Assembly (NCBI RefSeq): GCF_016755875.1
Contig: NZ_BNED01000003.1
Span: 186,001-250,000 of the forward strand
Source of the DNA: Streptomyces spororaveus
GTDB lineage: Bacteria; Actinomycetota; Actinomycetes; Streptomycetales; Streptomycetaceae
Direction: 5' to 3'
Length of the DNA stretch: 64,000 nucleotides
Part shown: piece after piece, positions 32,378-41,707 of the stretch
How positions within the stretch are numbered: the stretch's first letter is position 1
Layout of the letters: each line of letters opens with the position of its first letter
Position numbers and translations under genes: made by a program
The notes under the pieces: generated by a model
Told to the model about the DNA's origin: nothing
Database searches by the model: none
Seen by the model: the letters and a program-made list of their open reading frames with translations, nothing else

Positions 32378-34499
<2,122 letters not shown>

Positions 34500-34703: not shown

Positions 34704-37700
34704 ATGGCGGAGAGCCCCGAGGTGTCCGACAGCCCCGCGCAGCCGCCCCCGCGCGACTGCGCCGACGAGCCGATCGCCGGGATCACGGCCGAGTTCGTGG
34801 GCGAGCGGATGGGGGACCGCGTCGCACGGGGGCAGGACCCCCTCCTGCGCCCGGTCTTCGTCAAGTTCCACGGCGCGGCCCGCGGTGTACTGACGGTCGC
34901 CCCCGACCTGCCCCCGGAGCTCTGCGTCGGTTTCCTCAGGGCCGCGGCCGAACAAGGCGGCCTGACCGCCTGGGTGCGCGTCTCCAGCGATACCCAGCCC
35001 GAGCGGCCCGACCTGCGCAGAACCGTCGGATGGGGCATCAAGCTGTTCGGCGTGCCGGGGCCGAAACTGCTCCAGGACGACACCCGGGCCGACACACAGG
35101 ACCTCGTCCTGCAGAACCACGACGTCTTCTTCGTCGACACGGCCCGGGACATGTGCGAGTTCCAGCTGGACCAGGCGGCGTACCAGCAGCAGCACCCCCT
35201 CACCCGGCAGATCCTCGCGGACATGCGCAAGCCCGTCGAGAGCACGCTCACGTCGACGTACTGGGGCGTGCTGCCGTACGCCTTCGGGCCGGACCGGCAC
35301 GTGAAGTACAAGCTCGTCCCGGCCGGCTGCGCGGACGGCGACCCCCGGGCGGTGCCGCCGGACGAGGACCCCTCCTTCCTGCGCGGGGACCTGCGCCACC
35401 GGCTGGCCGCCGGCCCGGCCGCCTTCGACCTGCTGCTCCAGTTCCGGACGGATCCGGACCGTATGCCGCTGGACCGGGCCACCGTGCGCTGGGAGGAGAG
35501 CGAGAGCGCGCCCGTGAGAGTGGCGCGGCTGACTCTGCATCAGCAGGACACGGCGGCACGGGGGCAGGAGGAGTACGGGGACAACCTCGCCTTCAACCCC
35601 TGGCACAGCCTGTCCGAGCACGAGCCCGTCGGCAGCATGGCCGAGGCCCGCAAGGTCGTCTACCGCGCGTCGGCGGCCCGGCGGCGCGACGCCAACGGCA
35701 TTCCGGCGGCGGAGCCCGGTCCCGCGCGGCCGTCGGCCGCCGAACCGCACGGACGCGACACCCGGATCGTACGGGCCGCGGTGCACCCGGCGATCGGGGT
35801 GGCGCGGGTCGGCGACAGCGCGGAGGAGTTCTTCCTCGCCCCGGAGGTCGACGGGGCTCCCCCACCGGCCACCGGTACGTACAAGGACGCGAGCGGCGCG
35901 CTGAAGCGACAGGCGGTCCGGTTCCGGGTGTACGGCTACAACGCCGCCGGTGAGGCGGTGGCCGAGCTGACGGCGGACAACGCCGACCTGCGCTGGACCG
36001 TGGAGGTGGCCAACAAGAAGGCGGCCTGGTACCAGTTCCAGCTGGCCCTGGACATCCCCGAGGCGGCGCAGGCGCCCGCCACCACGCTGCGCAACCTCAC
36101 GACGGTGCCCGCCGGGGAGCGCGACCGGCTGGCGATCCGGCCCGGGCCCCGCTCGATCCGGGGCCGCGAGCGCGCGGGGAAGCCCGAGTACGCGTTCGAC
36201 ACGGGGACGTTCCTCGGGCATCCCGTCTACCTGGGCGAACTGCGCACCGACGAAGCCGGCCGCCTGCTGTTCCTCGGCGGGCGCGGGGTGTCCGCCTCGT
36301 ACCCCCCGGTCCAGGCGACGCACTTCGCCAACAACGACGGCTGGCACGACGACACCTGCGACGGGCCGGTCACCGCGCAGGTCCGCATCGACGGCAGGAG
36401 CGTCCCGGTCGATCCGGCCTGGGTGGTGGTCGCTCCCCCGAATTTCGCACCGGAGCTCACGTCGGTGCGCACGATGTACGACCTGATGTGCGACACCTTC
36501 GTGGCCGCGGGCATGCTGGCGCCGCCGGAGCGGGTCTCGTTCACCCACGACGTGCTGCCGGTGCTGCGCCGCCTGTGCGATCTGCAGTGGGTCAACCGCG
36601 GCTTCGCGGCCCTGTTCGGTCACGGTGGGCGCGAGCACTTCCTGGCACCCGGGCGACTGGCGGAGCTGGCCGGTCACGGTACGCGGCGCGACGAACTGCG
36701 GCAGCAGATCTGGGCGATGCTGCGGGATCCCGAGCGCGACGGGCTCTCCCCCGTGCCCTGGCCGCCGATCTACGGCGACTCGATGAGCGTGCGGCCGGTC
36801 TCCGAGCGCCAGCACCTGGCGCTCTCCCCGTTGCAGTACGGCATGCTGGCGCGCTGGGCCGCCGGGGACTTCGACGCCGACCATGATCCCGCGGCCACGC
36901 CGCCCACGGCGGCCCCGGGTTCCACCGCGCTGGACGGCCTGCCGCTCGCTCAGCGCCCGGCGGCCCTGGACCGGGCCGCCCTGTCGTACTGTCTGGCCGA
37001 CGCCTTCCACCCCGGCTGTGAGCTCTCCTGGCCGATGCGTCACGCCACCTTGTACTCCGCGCCCTTCCGGGTGCGCCACCGCGACCCCGCCCGGCCCGAA
37101 CCCGGTTACGGCTCCACGCTCACCCCGCAGGCGGTGCTCGCGATCGACGGTCCGCTGTACGCCCAGGAGCCGGGCGGTCTGACCCGCTGGATGGCCGTCC
37201 CCTGGCAGACCGACACCGCCCGCTGCCGCTCCGGGTACTACCTGGGCTTCGGGCCGCGGTACGACCCGTACCTGCCCACCTTCTGGCCTGCGCGGGTGCC
37301 CAACCACGTGCTGACGGAGGAGAACTACCGGACCGCCGTCGATCCCGCCGCCGACCCCGAGGAGCGTCGCACCGCCTTCGAGGACAGGGCGGTGTGGGAC
37401 AGATGGCTGCCCTCCGACCGCATCGCCCAGATGAACGCCATGGTCAAGGACTTCGGCAAGCTCGGCATCATCGCACGGCGTGAAGTCCCCACCGCGGATA
37501 CGGATACGGATAGGGACACCGATAGGGACACGGATACCGGCTCCGGTGACGTGGTGAGTCTCCCCGCGAGCATGCTGGTGGAGTCCGAGGTGGGGTTCCA
37601 TCCCGAAGAGGCTCCGCCCCCGCTGCGGAACCTCGTGTGCCTGCACGTGCCCGAGGCCGCCGATCCCGACGTGCGGGAGGAGGCGGTGGCCGCCGCCATC

Positions 37701-37778
37701 GCCGCGGCCGACCGGCCCGACGAGGAGGTGCTGGCGGGGTACTTCGAGAAGGTCGCCCGCTTCCCGGAGACACCGTGA
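34704..37778 (+). CDS. Fusion of a catalase-like heme domain and a LodA-type quinone (CTQ) amino-acid oxidase
   Basis: This 1024-residue protein starts at an ATG behind AGGAGCAG. Residues 1-345 resemble minimal catalases: His56 in VKFHGAARG, Asn138 in VLQNHDVFFVDTARD, NLAFNPWHSLSEHEP, and a proximal heme motif Arg316-x-x-x-Tyr320 (RKVVY). From residue 354 it is LodA/GoxA-like: RIVRAAVHPAIGVARVGDS, TADNADLRWTVEVANKKAAW and NDGWHDDTCDGPVTAQVRID. Candidate cofactor residues for cysteine tryptophylquinone are Cys772 (HPGCELSW) and Trp834 or Trp829 (RWMAVPWQ). LodA enzymes oxidise primary amines of amino acids, giving peroxide and ammonia, so the catalase half could remove that peroxide. The next gene, its likely maturation partner, overlaps by four bases. 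There is a short repeat TDTDRDTDRDTDTG near the C-terminus. Confidence 0.85.
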   Translation: MAESPEVSDSPAQPPPRDCADEPIAGITAEFVGERMGDRVARGQDPLLRPVFVKFHGAARGVLTVAPDLPPELCVGFLRAAAEQGGLTAWVRVSSDTQPERPDLRRTVGWGIKLFGVPGPKLLQDDTRADTQDLVLQNHDVFFVDTARDMCEFQLDQAAYQQQHPLTRQILADMRKPVESTLTSTYWGVLPYAFGPDRHVKYKLVPAGCADGDPRAVPPDEDPSFLRGDLRHRLAAGPAAFDLLLQFRTDPDRMPLDRATVRWEESESAPVRVARLTLHQQDTAARGQEEYGDNLAFNPWHSLSEHEPVGSMAEARKVVYRASAARRRDANGIPAAEPGPARPSAAEPHGRDTRIVRAAVHPAIGVARVGDSAEEFFLAPEVDGAPPPATGTYKDASGALKRQAVRFRVYGYNAAGEAVAELTADNADLRWTVEVANKKAAWYQFQLALDIPEAAQAPATTLRNLTTVPAGERDRLAIRPGPRSIRGRERAGKPEYAFDTGTFLGHPVYLGELRTDEAGRLLFLGGRGVSASYPPVQATHFANNDGWHDDTCDGPVTAQVRIDGRSVPVDPAWVVVAPPNFAPELTSVRTMYDLMCDTFVAAGMLAPPERVSFTHDVLPVLRRLCDLQWVNRGFAALFGHGGREHFLAPGRLAELAGHGTRRDELRQQIWAMLRDPERDGLSPVPWPPIYGDSMSVRPVSERQHLALSPLQYGMLARWAAGDFDADHDPAATPPTAAPGSTALDGLPLAQRPAALDRAALSYCLADAFHPGCELSWPMRHATLYSAPFRVRHRDPARPEPGYGSTLTPQAVLAIDGPLYAQEPGGLTRWMAVPWQTDTARCRSGYYLGFGPRYDPYLPTFWPARVPNHVLTEENYRTAVDPAADPEERRTAFEDRAVWDRWLPSDRIAQMNAMVKDFGKLGIIARREVPTADTDTDRDTDRDTDTGSGDVVSLPASMLVESEVGFHPEEAPPPLRNLVCLHVPEAADPDVREEAVAAAIAAADRPDEEVLAGYFEKVARFPETP

Positions 37779-38941
37779 CCGCCCGGACCGGCGCCGGTCC
37801 CCGCACCGGGCGCCTCGAGGCCGTCGTGGCCGGGGGCGGCCCCGCCGGGGCCGTCGCCGCTCTGGTCCTGGCCCGCGCCGGCCGACATGTGCTGCTGGTG
37901 GACGGGGGCCCGCCGGGCGCTCGCTCCGGTGCCTTCACCATCGGGGAGACCCTGCCGCCCGCGGCCCGGCCGCTGCTGCACGACCTGGGGCTCTGGACCG
38001 CCTTCGCCGCCGACGCACACCTGAGCTGCCCGGGCACCGACGCGTCCTGGGGATCCGCCCGGCTGCTCGGCCACAGCCACCTGTTCGACCCGCACGGGCA
38101 GGGCTGGCACCTCGACCGGGACCGGTTCGACGCCTTCCTGCGCGAGGCCGCGGTGGCCGCGGGCGCGCTGATCCGGCGGGCGGTCGTGATCGGCCACCGC
38201 AGCGCGGGCGGCGAGCAGCGCCTGCTGGTACGGGAGCGGGGCGGCGCCGTACGGGAGTTGTGCTCCCGCTGGGTCGTGGACGCGACGGGCCGCCGCGCCC
38301 TCATCGGCCGCCGTCTGGCCCTGCGGCGCCGACAGGACCGGCTCGTGGCCGCGTTCACGCTGCTCGGCGGCCGGGTGAGCGGCGGCCACGCCGGGGACCC
38401 GGAGCTGCGTACCCTCGTCGAGGCCGTGCCCGAGGGCTGGTGGTACACCGCCAGGGTCCCGGCCGGGCGGGTGGTCGCCCATCTCACCGACGCCGACCTC
38501 GCCGGTGCCCGGCTGCGCACCGCCGAAGGGTTCCGGTACGCGGTGGCGCGCACCCGGCACGTACGGGACCGCCTGCGCGGCTACGACCCGGCCTGCTCCC
38601 CCGTCCCGTACTGGACGGCCGCCCACGGACTGCGGCTGTCGCCGCCGGGCGGCCCGGGCTGGGTCGCCGCCGGGGACGCCGCGATCGCCTTCGACCCCCT
38701 GTCCTCCCAGGGCATCCTCACGGCCCTGCACACCGGGGCCCGCGCCGGAGCGGCCGTCGCCCGGTGCCTGGCCGGCGAGAAGGAGGCGCTCGCGTCCTAT
38801 GCCTCGTTCCTGGACGGCGTGGCCGACGCGTACCACCACCATCACGCCCGGTCCTACGCGCAGGAGCGGCGGTGGCCTGAGCACCCGTTCTGGCGCCGCC
38901 GCAATGGGGGCCGTACCGACCCGGAGGGCGGCGCGGGGTGA
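37775..38941 (+). CDS. LodB-like FAD-dependent oxidoreductase, quinone-cofactor maturation partner
   Basis: This 388-residue protein starts at a GTG overlapping the previous stop (GTGA), so translation is coupled. The N-terminal Rossmann motif is VVAGGGPAGAVAALVLARAG, with the GETLPPAARPLL segment seen in halogenase-like flavoproteins, then WVVDATGRRALIGRR and the GWVAAGDAAIAFDPLSSQGI signature. LodB-type flavoproteins are needed to form the cysteine tryptophylquinone in LodA. Co-occurrence with LodA in an overlapping pair supports that role here. The C-terminus is Gly/Arg-rich. A strong hairpin follows. Confidence 0.86.
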   Translation: MTARTGAGPRTGRLEAVVAGGGPAGAVAALVLARAGRHVLLVDGGPPGARSGAFTIGETLPPAARPLLHDLGLWTAFAADAHLSCPGTDASWGSARLLGHSHLFDPHGQGWHLDRDRFDAFLREAAVAAGALIRRAVVIGHRSAGGEQRLLVRERGGAVRELCSRWVVDATGRRALIGRRLALRRRQDRLVAAFTLLGGRVSGGHAGDPELRTLVEAVPEGWWYTARVPAGRVVAHLTDADLAGARLRTAEGFRYAVARTRHVRDRLRGYDPACSPVPYWTAAHGLRLSPPGGPGWVAAGDAAIAFDPLSSQGILTALHTGARAGAAVARCLAGEKEALASYASFLDGVADAYHHHHARSYAQERRWPEHPFWRRRNGGRTDPEGGAG

Positions 38942-39007: not shown

Positions 39008-39040
39008 GTGAAGGCCCCGAGGCAGCCTCGGGGCCTTCAC
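39008..39040. terminator. Terminator hairpin after the LodAB-like pair
   Basis: A 15-bp perfect stem (39008-39022 with 39026-39040) has a CAG loop, 67 bp after the LodB-like stop, and separates this unit from the NB-ARC gene. Confidence 0.78.
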
Positions 39041-39220: not shown

Positions 39221-41707
39221 GTGCGGGCAAGGGGTGCGTGGGCGGGTTCGGTGGTTGCGGCCTCTGCGGCGGTGGCCGCCGCGGCGTCTGCCGTGGTGAC
39301 GAACTACGTGACGGATGTGCTGCCGGGATGGGCCGAGGACCCGTGGGTGGTGTGGCCGGTCTTCATCGTGTCCGTGATCGTCGCGGCCACGCTGGCCGTG
39401 CTGGGCCGCCGCCTGGACGGCGGGGGCGGGGCGGGGCCGGTCCGGCTGGTCCCGCTGGAGCGGGTCCTGGCCGGCGGAATGGAATCCCTGTCGGCCCCCC
39501 ACGGGGCGGGACCGGTCCGCGGGCGCACGGACGAGCTCGCCGCGCTGCGAAGGATGCTGAAGCGGCCCGAGGAGCGGTTGGCGGTGCTGTGCGGTGTCGG
39601 CGGGGTGGGCAAGACGACGATCGCCTCCGCCCTGGCCGACATCGCCCGCGCCGAAAACGTACGGGTGTTCTGGGTGCGCTGGCGTGGTCAGGCCGAACTG
39701 GCCGAGCAGATGACCCGCATCGCCCTGGAGTGCGGACTTCCCGAGGAGCGGTTGGAGGAAGCCCGGGCCGGGCGCGCGGCCCTGCCCGATGTGGTGTGGG
39801 AGCAGCTGAACCGGGTGGGCAGGTGGCTGGTGGTGCTGGACAACGTCGACGAACCGGGTGAGGTGGGACCCGAGGGTGAGCCGGTGGCGGGCTACCGGGG
39901 ATGGGTGCGGCCCGGCAGCCGCGGTCTGCTGGTCGTGACCAGTCGGGACGGTGACGCTTCCGTGTGGGGAGGCCGGGCCGAGCTGTTGCGCGTCGCGCCG
40001 CTGACCCCGTCGGCGGCTGGGCAGGTGCTCGTCGACGCCGCGCCTGCGGCCGGAACCGCGCAGGAGGCCGAACTCCTCTCCGTCCGGCTCGGCGGGCTCC
40101 CCCTCGCCCTGCACGCCGCCGGCCGGTACCTCGCCGCGCCGGGCAGCCGCTACCGCACCTTCACCGCCTACGAAGACGCCCTCGGCACCCACCTGGCCAC
40201 CCTGCTCGGGGCAGAGATCCCGGGCGGGGCCGATCCCGAGGCCGCGCGCCGCCTGGTCCGCTACACCTGGGAGCTCTCCCTCGACCAACTCGCCGCCAAC
40301 GGCAACGCGCTCGCCCGGCCGGTACTGCGCCTCCTGTCGCTGCTGGCGCCCGCGCCCGTACCAGTCTCCTTCCTGTGCCCGGAGCTGGTCACCGCCGCCT
40401 GCGGGACACCGGCTACCGCGGTAGCGATCGAGACCGCGGTGAACGGACTCCACACCTACGGTCTCCTGGACACCCTCACCTTTCCTGACGGCACGCCGGC
40501 CATCGGACAGGTCATCCTCCACCCGCTCGTCCGCGACATCACCGCCCTCACCCTCCGCGCCGAAACCCCCGGCCTGGACAGCTGGCACCGGGCCCTGACC
40601 GAACGCATGGCAGCCGTCGTGGACGAAGCCGCAGACGCCAGCCTGTCCGGCTGGACCATCAGCAGACTTCTCGCCCCCCACGCGCTGACCATCGCGGAGC
40701 TCACCCCTGACGCCCTGGCTGCCGGCCGCACCCTCGGCAGGCTCTCGGACAGTACTCGCCGAGCCGGGCATCCCGAACAGGCAGCTGTCCTTGCGGAACA
40801 AGCCCTCAACCGCCTCCAGCCGGGGCTGGGGAACGATCACACCACCGTCCTGAGCAGCCGCAACAACCTCGCCCTCGCGTTGGAGGGTCTCGGCCGCCAC
40901 CAGGAGGCCGCCGACCTCCACCAGCACAACCTCGCCCACCTCGAACGCAGCCTCGGCAACGGCCACCCCCACACGCTCACCTGCCGCAACAACCTCGCCC
41001 TCACGCTGCAGGGCCTCGGCCGCCACCAGGAAGCCGCCGACCTCCACCAGCAGACCCTCACCGACCGAGAACGCGCCCTCGGCACCGACCACCCGGACAC
41101 CTTCTCCAGCCGCAACAACCTCGCCCTCGCGCTGCGGGGTCTCGGCCGGCCTCAGGAAGCGGCCGACCTCCACGAGCACAACCTCGCCCGCCTCGAACGC
41201 GCGCTCGGCACCGACCACCCCCTCACACTCGGAAGCCGCTACAACCTCGCCAACACCCTGCAGGGTCTCGGCCGACACCAGGAGGCCGCCGACCTCCACC
41301 GGCACACCCTGACCGACCGCGTGCGCACCCTCGGCAACGACCACCCCAACACCCTCGGAAGCCGCAACAACCTCGCCGTCGCGCTGCAGGATCTCGACCG
41401 GCACCAGGAGGCCGCCGACCTCCACCGGCACAACCTCGCCCACCGCGAACGCGCTCTCGGCACCGACCACCCCCACACTCTCGAAAGCCGCAACAACCTC
41501 GCCGTCGCCCTGCTGGACCTCGGCCGTCGCCGGGAGGCTGCCGAGCTTCACCGGCAGACCCTCGCCGATCGCGAACGCGTCCTCGGCCCCGACCACCCCG
41601 ACACCCTCGTCAGCCGCAACAACCTCGCGCAGCTCGGAACACGGGCGCCATCCAGGCTTGCCGGCCGGTGGCGTTGGAGTGGTCTCCGGCGTCGTAGGCG
41701 CGGATGA
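39221..41707 (+). CDS. Membrane-anchored NB-ARC/STAND NTPase with TPR repeats
   Basis: This 828-residue protein starts at a GTG at 39221. Two N-terminal membrane helices (GSVVAASAAVAAAASAVVTN; WVVWPVFIVSVIVAATLAVL) lead to the NTPase. The P-loop is GVGGVGKTT at residues 125-133, Walker B is LVVLDNVD ending at 210, and RGLLVVTSRDGDASVW is the sensor. GLPLALHAAGRYL is the NB-ARC GxP motif, and LVRYTWELSLDQL follows. From about residue 547, six near-identical 42-residue TPRs are followed by an aberrant basic tail. Architecture and repeats are those of NLR-like proteins of bacteria and fungi, some of which are anti-phage. No toxic effector domain is visible other than the membrane segment, which could itself be the effector. 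Confidence 0.87.
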   Translation: MRARGAWAGSVVAASAAVAAAASAVVTNYVTDVLPGWAEDPWVVWPVFIVSVIVAATLAVLGRRLDGGGGAGPVRLVPLERVLAGGMESLSAPHGAGPVRGRTDELAALRRMLKRPEERLAVLCGVGGVGKTTIASALADIARAENVRVFWVRWRGQAELAEQMTRIALECGLPEERLEEARAGRAALPDVVWEQLNRVGRWLVVLDNVDEPGEVGPEGEPVAGYRGWVRPGSRGLLVVTSRDGDASVWGGRAELLRVAPLTPSAAGQVLVDAAPAAGTAQEAELLSVRLGGLPLALHAAGRYLAAPGSRYRTFTAYEDALGTHLATLLGAEIPGGADPEAARRLVRYTWELSLDQLAANGNALARPVLRLLSLLAPAPVPVSFLCPELVTAACGTPATAVAIETAVNGLHTYGLLDTLTFPDGTPAIGQVILHPLVRDITALTLRAETPGLDSWHRALTERMAAVVDEAADASLSGWTISRLLAPHALTIAELTPDALAAGRTLGRLSDSTRRAGHPEQAAVLAEQALNRLQPGLGNDHTTVLSSRNNLALALEGLGRHQEAADLHQHNLAHLERSLGNGHPHTLTCRNNLALTLQGLGRHQEAADLHQQTLTDRERALGTDHPDTFSSRNNLALALRGLGRPQEAADLHEHNLARLERALGTDHPLTLGSRYNLANTLQGLGRHQEAADLHRHTLTDRVRTLGNDHPNTLGSRNNLAVALQDLDRHQEAADLHRHNLAHRERALGTDHPHTLESRNNLAVALLDLGRRREAAELHRQTLADRERVLGPDHPDTLVSRNNLAQLGTRAPSRLAGRWRWSGLRRRRRG
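40859..41614 (+). repeat. Six tandem 126-bp repeats encoding TPRs
   Basis: Each unit encodes 42 residues beginning RNNLALALxGLGRHQEAADL and ending ALGTDHPxTLxS. Units differ at the diversified positions (Glu, Gln, Arg, Asp, Leu after LAL; HNLAHLER versus TLTDRER). DNA identity between units is very high, as expected for repeats that exchange by recombination. A partial seventh unit starts at 41615 and breaks after RNNLA. Confidence 0.85.

Follow-up and report, generated by a model that had tools for sequence, protein, structure and literature searches.

The 64,000-nucleotide stretch of Streptomyces spororaveus DNA analysed here (contig NZ_BNED01000003.1, positions 186,001 to 250,000; hereafter the window) encodes a protein in which a catalase-fold, predicted heme-binding domain is fused to an oxidase of the LodA/GoxA type, with a predicted cysteine tryptophylquinone (CTQ) cofactor, followed by the gene for a LodB/GoxB-type flavoprotein (Table 1). 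This reading of one 1024-residue gene as a catalase-fold N-terminus joined to a LodA/GoxA-like half, put forward in an initial annotation made from the nucleotides alone, was upheld by Pfam, profile, and structure comparisons. The new element is, according to the alignments, the loss of the distal histidine in every LodA-linked heme domain that has a residue at this position.

Table 1. Features of the fusion locus (positions in the window; fractions are aligned rows with the residue over rows that have a residue there)
Feature	Position	Strand	Remarks
Fusion gene, catalase-fold heme domain + LodA/GoxA-type CTQ oxidase (predicted)	34704..37778	+	1024 aa, ATG start
Catalase-fold (y4iL/cd08152-like) heme domain, residues 22-342	34767..35729	+	
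Arg49, aligned with catalase heme-propionate Arg	34848..34850	+	80/80 fusion rows
Phe52, at the catalase distal His place by alignment	34857..34859	+	80/80 fusion rows
His56, four residues past the distal His position	34869..34871	+	80/80 fusion rows
Asn138, catalase distal Asn equivalent	35115..35117	+	81/81 rows
Arg316-x3-Tyr320, putative proximal heme ligand motif	35649..35663	+	Tyr 81/81, Arg 80/81
LodA_N (PF17990), residues 361-576	35784..36431	+	Pfam
LodA_C (PF18417), residues 693-845	36780..37238	+	Pfam
Cys772, earlier CTQ candidate	37017..37019	+	rejected as CTQ Cys
Asp837 + Cys841 in W-Q-T-D-T-A-R-C, active-site Asp and CTQ Cys candidates (LodA Cys516)	37212..37226	+	
Trp861, best CTQ Trp candidate (LodA Trp581)	37284..37286	+	106/106 LodA-like rows
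LodB/GoxB-type flavin adenine dinucleotide flavoprotein, likely maturase	37775..38941	+	388 aa, GTG start, 4-base overlap with fusion gene
Perfect 16-nt inverted repeat after lodB	39008..39040	+	possible transcript end

The C-terminal half belongs to the LodA family by its matches to LodA_N (280.2 bits, cut-off 26.3) and LodA_C (130.2 bits, cut-off 25). Against the NCBIfam equivalog models the protein scored closer to GoxA (NF038173, 415.5 bits) than to LodA (NF038172, 194.4 bits), in both cases under the cut-off (750 and 600, respectively). The same Pfam scan gave no match at the N-terminus, PF00199 (Catalase) included, above the cut-off, and PF00199 was matched by 12 of 27 members of the heme-domain family at E values up to 0.1. 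The catalase fold is indicated by other comparisons: residues 1-345 alone had a single match among the PDB sequences, 3e4w (E 1.5e-7), a catalase-related protein of M. avium paratuberculosis; a profile of the 27 members matched 3e4w (4.8e-14), heme catalases (best 1.2e-9), and a coral allene oxide synthase-lipoxygenase (3e-4); and the PDB structure matches included 3dy5 and 1u5u. In a library of viral folds, a Tupanvirus catalase was the sole match with E <0.001. The proposed division at residues 1-345 and 354-1024 thus held as to LodA_N, LodA_C, and 3e4w, the Pfam Catalase match being the part that failed.

A frame error or an artificial merger of two genes was rejected, given the full-length relatives in both database and genome-contig searches. 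Among the best 120 of 3339 database proteins (E up to 0.001), 118 align over 94% or more of the query, and both halves are covered in each of the best 80 of 475 relatives from a genome-contig profile scan, a scan whose ranking favours full-length matches; the frame is broken in one of these 80 loci (L064). The overlapping downstream gene, described as LodB-like from the start, is indeed of this type, with 260.5 bits against the NCBIfam GoxB model and 182.1 against LodB, below the equivalog cut-off of 400 of either. A LodB-like gene follows the fusion in 76 of the 80 loci, and the sequences of the other four (L010, L041, L062, and L080) stop at a contig edge.

The heme pocket was compared in an alignment of 81 rows, namely the window protein and the 80 loci, of which L064 lacks the N-terminus, and in a second set drawn from a profile-based search (the best 120 of 366 matches), which includes separate proteins of 340 residues and fusion fragments. 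Asn138 and Arg316-x3-Tyr320, named earlier as catalase sites, align with these sites and are kept throughout the main alignment with a single exception at Arg316 (Table 1); among the matches listed in the second set, Asn138 is present in 118 of 121 rows and Tyr320 in 110 of the 113 that have a residue there. Ser94 is conserved in 78 of the 80 rows of the main alignment with a residue there, and Arg49 presumably is the counterpart of the heme-propionate arginine of human catalase, which we take to be Arg72. The equation of His56 with the distal histidine did not survive the comparison: both the alignment with y4iL and the modelled structure put Phe52 in that place. Arg49, Phe52, and His56 were each found in all 120 rows of the second set with residues there (the window protein and 119 listed matches).

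The replacement is apparent from short motifs. In the catalases of the source genome itself this segment reads R-V-V-H-A-R-G, in y4iL it is R-G-Q-H-F-K-Q-H-G, and in the LodA-linked clade R-x-x-F-x-(K/R)-x-H-G, without gaps relative to y4iL. The distal histidine is present in 23 of 23 further y4iL-type or peroxidase-fused rows that reach this position (a few genes are repeated and one row is cut), which suggests that the LodA-linked clade exchanged the distal histidine for phenylalanine while keeping the second histidine. In comparisons of the modelled structure with catalases, which give the first and last aligned residue of each range, Phe52 aligned with residue 75 of the human enzyme, 74 of the bovine enzyme, and 128 of E. 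coli HPII; a second model was deliberately started at Phe52 to expose the pairing of this residue. HMMER profile alignments likewise pair Phe52 with the histidine in both 4qol and 3e4w, the confidence at that point being intermediate. A profile-profile alignment with four catalases starts at residue 58, and its ungapped extension backwards would put Val53 on the histidine, so that a one-residue offset must fall before residue 58. The placement of Phe52 therefore leans mainly on the y4iL alignment and the structure ranges.

These residues bear directly on the idea that the built-in catalase protects the quinone cofactor, which is weakened because the distal histidine is phenylalanine in every LodA-linked row with a residue there, although the proximal tyrosine and arginine and the distal asparagine are kept. 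A working catalase that destroys the H2O2 of its own oxidase and returns O2, with His56 or Asn138 standing in for the distal histidine, would fit the catalase fold, the conservation of Tyr320, Arg316, Asn138, and Ser94, the invariant His56, the fusion to a peroxide maker, and the PF00199 matches within the family. We nonetheless consider it rather doubtful in view of the distal phenylalanine, given that the histidine persists in y4iL-type proteins and in the source genome's own catalases, and that this genome already encodes four full ordinary catalases besides the fusion.

In the LodA half, the initial annotation had proposed Cys772 with Trp834 or Trp829 as the CTQ residues. This assignment was rejected: in the alignment with the GoxA of the PDB, Cys772 lies opposite valine, and it is replaced by another residue in 15 of the 105 LodA-like rows with a residue there; Cys772 is thus not the CTQ cysteine. 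The same alignment sets W-Q-T-D-T-A-R-C of the fusion opposite W-Q-S-D-A-A-S-C of GoxA, and GoxA residues F316, H583, and D678, named in PDB titles, correspond, as counted by hand, to Phe541, His769, and Asp837. The match to the LodA chain 3weu stops at LodA residue 517, equivalent to fusion residue 842; provided that no gap falls in the final two residues, Cys841 pairs with Cys516. Cys841 is found in 105 of 106 LodA-like rows, the exception being a broken gene (L085). Trp898 is kept in 104 of 106 rows but is tyrosine in a true LodA relative (L111, 1221 bits), whereas Cys841 and Trp861 are constant in an alignment that includes this bona fide LodA and distant members. The CTQ pair is therefore most likely Cys841 and Trp861, the counterparts of LodA Cys516 and Trp581, with the tryptophan identified by conservation and not by residue-level pairing with the LodA structure.

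A conceivable alternative role for the heme half is in the making of this cofactor. MauG, a heme enzyme, completes the related tryptophan tryptophylquinone cofactor using H2O2, and the catalase-fold domain, fused or encoded by the next gene, consistently accompanies a CTQ protein and the flavoprotein that probably matures it. We regard such help in cis as improbable, since the unfused relatives retain the Cys, Trp, and Asp, the PDB matches to LodA and GoxA span the LodA half only, and, to our knowledge, LodA and GoxA have no heme domain. The LodA cofactor, moreover, requires LodB (PMC4417212).

From the sequence we infer the presence of heme and CTQ, the use of peroxide in cis, and the type of chemistry: the protein would be a LodA-family quinoprotein oxidase whose fused heme domain meets the H2O2 made by the same molecule and is likelier to behave as a peroxidase or peroxygenase than as a fast catalase. 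To this reading, which draws on sequence, modelling, and analogy, we assign roughly even odds (about 0.5). By analogy with LodA and LodB, the flavoprotein would mature CTQ from Cys841 and Trp861; the CTQ site, like that of LodA and GoxA, would then oxidise an amino acid or amine and release H2O2; the heme domain, with its heme on Tyr320, would meet this peroxide within the same protein, as its position and conservation suggest; and the heme site would most probably spend the peroxide slowly or on a second oxidation, with Asn138 and perhaps His56 participating. Canonical catalases depend on the distal histidine for their chemistry; given phenylalanine at that position, fast catalase activity appears less likely than such slower peroxide use or second oxidation. 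A stricter version, which we offer only tentatively and would not bet on, is a self-fed two-step enzyme in which the Phe-pocket heme spends the CTQ-made H2O2 in peroxygenase- or peroxidase-type turnover of a second substrate, perhaps the product of the same amine, with little peroxide released. If true, this would amount to a one-chain quinone-plus-heme cascade in many bacterial groups, and its catalase-fold pocket would be of a new kind.

Several points weigh against the reading of the heme domain as a peroxidase- or peroxygenase-like user of peroxide made in cis. A movement of His56 into the pocket could make up for the lost histidine, and the predicted structure of the fusion (predicted template modelling score 0.65) leaves the relative orientation of the two halves unsure. 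Close LodA relatives without the heme half exist, namely a six-row Streptomyces clade and the loci L174, L175, and L177, which means that some lineages can do without the heme half; and open fusions are a minority among the LodA_N-bearing genomes sampled (2/14 in the source genus; 2/12 in Pseudomonadota, counting the genome chosen as the centre of that sample).

On the other side stands the manner in which the two halves evolve. Over 78 rows, the pairwise distances of the heme and LodA halves correlate with r of 0.85 (the best of 500 permutations reached 0.08), the mean identity is 54% for the heme half and 56% for the LodA half, and the nearest neighbour is the same for both halves in 53 of the 78. 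The halves thus diverge in step and to a similar extent, suggesting a constraint on the heme half similar to that on the LodA half. This conservation, with Arg49, Asn138, Arg316, and Tyr320 nearly invariant over 80 loci, also counts against a catalytically quiet heme half that serves as a structural, targeting, or heme-sensing module in folding or assembly of the oxidase, which we consider unlikely even though the distal histidine is lost and the domain is repeatedly absent from close LodA relatives.

The heme domain also accompanies LodA unfused, as a gene directly upstream of lodA-lodB. A heme-protein query against 244 Chitinophagaceae genomes gave matches in 15: 2 with a separate LodA-type heme gene, 6 with a frame of fused size (1086-1109 aa), and 7 with y4iL-type proteins only. 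In both split loci the order is heme-lodA-lodB, with a gap of 25-26 bases between the first two genes. On a Sinorhizobium medicae plasmid (pSU277_3, L121, 3941-7926), a separate heme gene precedes an apparently disrupted lodA, and there is also a flavoprotein gene that carries the annotation tryptophan 7-halogenase. In a LodA tree of 105 rows built by a quick method, the 80 fused rows (window, 77 loci, L083, and L176) fall within one 89-row group (Shimodaira-Hasegawa-like approximate likelihood-ratio test support, 99) together with 9 unfused rows, and the split pair lies just outside; the fusion label changes 4 times, at least 2 of these forced by starred branches. In the heme tree (111 rows, with long branches flagged), a starred branch (99) separates the LodA-linked rows from the y4iL-type and peroxidase-fused ones; on the LodA-linked side fused and separate proteins are intermixed, with 6 changes of the fused label, at least 3 of them forced. 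This pattern suggests an old gene pair that became fused, with the heme half later split off or lost, although repeated gains of the fusion may be the alternative history.

The 80 loci come from 8 phyla, with one locus unplaced: Pseudomonadota (43), Actinomycetota (18), Myxococcota (7), Bacteroidota (5), Acidobacteriota (2), Cyanobacteriota (2), Planctomycetota (1), and Bacillota (1). The survey of actinomycetes suggested at the outset thus recovered the fusion there, with a patchy occurrence in the source genus: of 150 genomes, 14 contain LodA_N, and of these 2 have an open fusion, 1 a fusion in two frames, and 8 no heme half, the unfused status being read from about 1.2-1.5 kb upstream, with L088 (about 0.5 kb) and the fragments L095 and L096 left unclassified. 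The Pseudomonadota sample of 398 genomes has 12 with LodA_N, 2 of which, the chosen centre being one, carry the heme half beside it. When separate heme proteins served as queries, long frames of fused size turned up in 8 of 395 genomes from the phylum of Aquimarina; 12 of 292 cyanobacterial genomes matched, one of them with a fused-size frame; and 4 of 396 Actinomycetota matched, where, with up to five candidates scored per genome, the LodA-type fusion appeared only in the window. Two Streptomyces genomes (G054 and G009) carry a LodA gene split over two frames (L085 and L094); L085 has no heme half, yet is 67% identical to the LodA part of the window protein. Two other LodA-like proteins (L177 in G1800 and L112 in G158) have some 150-165 extra N-terminal residues with no Pfam match at E up to 0.01.

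A conserved gene cluster wider than the fusion and lodB was rejected by neighbour clustering and by DNA comparison of five close relatives. The LodB-type genes form one 56-locus cluster; the next-largest set, 12 loci on the opposite strand at the same place, was taken for an antisense artefact; and the smaller sets are Acinetobacter-only (6-7 loci), ABC-ATPase-like (6 loci, in varied places), or sensor-like (5). Shared DNA ahead of the fusion gene is limited to 143 bases in L003 and to 110 bases plus two pieces farther upstream in L004, with no upstream match in L005, L006, or L083 and no downstream match in any of the five. A PADLOC scan gave no match, and a role as a defence system was rejected. 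The terminator scan did not call the inverted repeat after lodB, and neither a T-tailed terminator nor a sigma-70 promoter was found. Divergently upstream in the window lie genes for a Glu/Leu/Phe/Val dehydrogenase (32378-33898, minus strand) and a flavodoxin-like protein (33984-34496, minus strand); similar DNA is found upstream of the L004 fusion, about 2.7 kb away, and not in L003, L005, L006, or L083. Downstream of lodB, 39221-41707 (plus strand) encodes an AAA/NB-ARC-like ATPase with tetratricopeptide repeats, its NB-ARC match falling under the cut-off. In seven Acinetobacter loci (L027, L029, L030, L035, L037, L053, and L064) a gene for a small secreted-looking protein precedes the fusion, in six of the seven with chaperone-usher pilus-like genes also ahead; six Acinetobacter loci have a lipoprotein-like y4iL-type gene after lodB, and the five aligned retain both histidines.

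The design of the protein, thought undescribed in the initial annotation, was in fact on record: Table 3 of Campillo-Brocal et al. (2015; PMC4417212) lists 21 LodA-like proteins of 963-1072 aa with an N-terminal catalase-type region, including those of S. afghaniensis 772 (999 aa) and S. purpureus (993 aa), so that the claim of novelty fails. Our searches recovered the S. afghaniensis copy (L005), 999 aa long as listed and 77% identical to the window protein, as well as those of O. beijerinckii DSM 7166 (L038) and M. timonae CCUG 45783 (L070). In the available text of that paper all 21 proteins are placed in Group III, no member of which had been characterised to its authors' knowledge; their catalase-type domains are said not necessarily to be catalase-active, the activity being left open, and no pocket analysis is given there. 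The window protein shares the architecture, length, and LodB neighbour of Group III and joins it as one more ortholog, with no difference in kind, on the strength of its catalase-fold region on a LodA-like protein and of its identity to the S. afghaniensis copy. Searches of one literature collection found no later functional study of such fusions and nothing usable on y4iL-type proteins or the activity of 3e4w, and the searched text of a Chem Rev paper (PMC11719350) held no catalase-related passages. The residue result recasts the idea of a built-in catalase as a question about the role of a Phe-for-His catalase-fold heme beside a peroxide-making quinone site. The database label "catalase" on such proteins (e.g., P0017 and P0030) may mislead, and the fused kind may not share the antimicrobial role that LodA owes to peroxide.

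Among known systems, GoxA of P. luteoviolacea (6byw) and LodA of M. mediterranea (3weu) match the LodA half of the fusion only. By contrast, y4iL of NGR234 (L120) and 3e4w have the fold and the Tyr/Arg heme site in common with the window domain, and y4iL also has the H-G four residues past the distal position; both proteins differ in keeping the distal histidine where the LodA-linked clade has phenylalanine. In the source genome the heme module also occurs with another partner: a y4iL-type domain with its distal histidine is fused to an animal-type heme peroxidase, PF03098 (G000:C5, about 1409327-1412329; L173, 6328-9330); L008 (3386-6259) encodes such a fusion too, both in the range of 957-1000 aa. 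On plasmids of Rhodococcus, Paracoccus, and Methylobacterium (L122, L124, and L125), y4iL-type genes adjoin peroxidase-annotated genes in what looks like the unfused form of this pair.

A parallel in design is the coral allene oxide synthase-lipoxygenase (3dy5), in which an N-terminal catalase-fold heme domain is likewise carried by a peroxide-forming oxygenase. There the catalase-fold domain consumes the hydroperoxide of the fused lipoxygenase, and two highly identical coral domains differ in catalase activity by about two orders of magnitude (PMC5617202); peroxide use in cis therefore exists, and activity cannot be told from the fold alone. That the heme half described here might similarly act on an organic hydroperoxide instead of H2O2 is suggested by this fusion and by that with the animal-type heme peroxidase in the source genome, but it is the least probable of the explanations considered, because the partner here should yield H2O2 and not lipid hydroperoxides, and because the coral enzyme retains its distal His67 (PMC5617202). 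The coral protein thus pairs a His-containing pocket with a lipoxygenase, whereas the window protein pairs Phe52 with a LodA-type partner.

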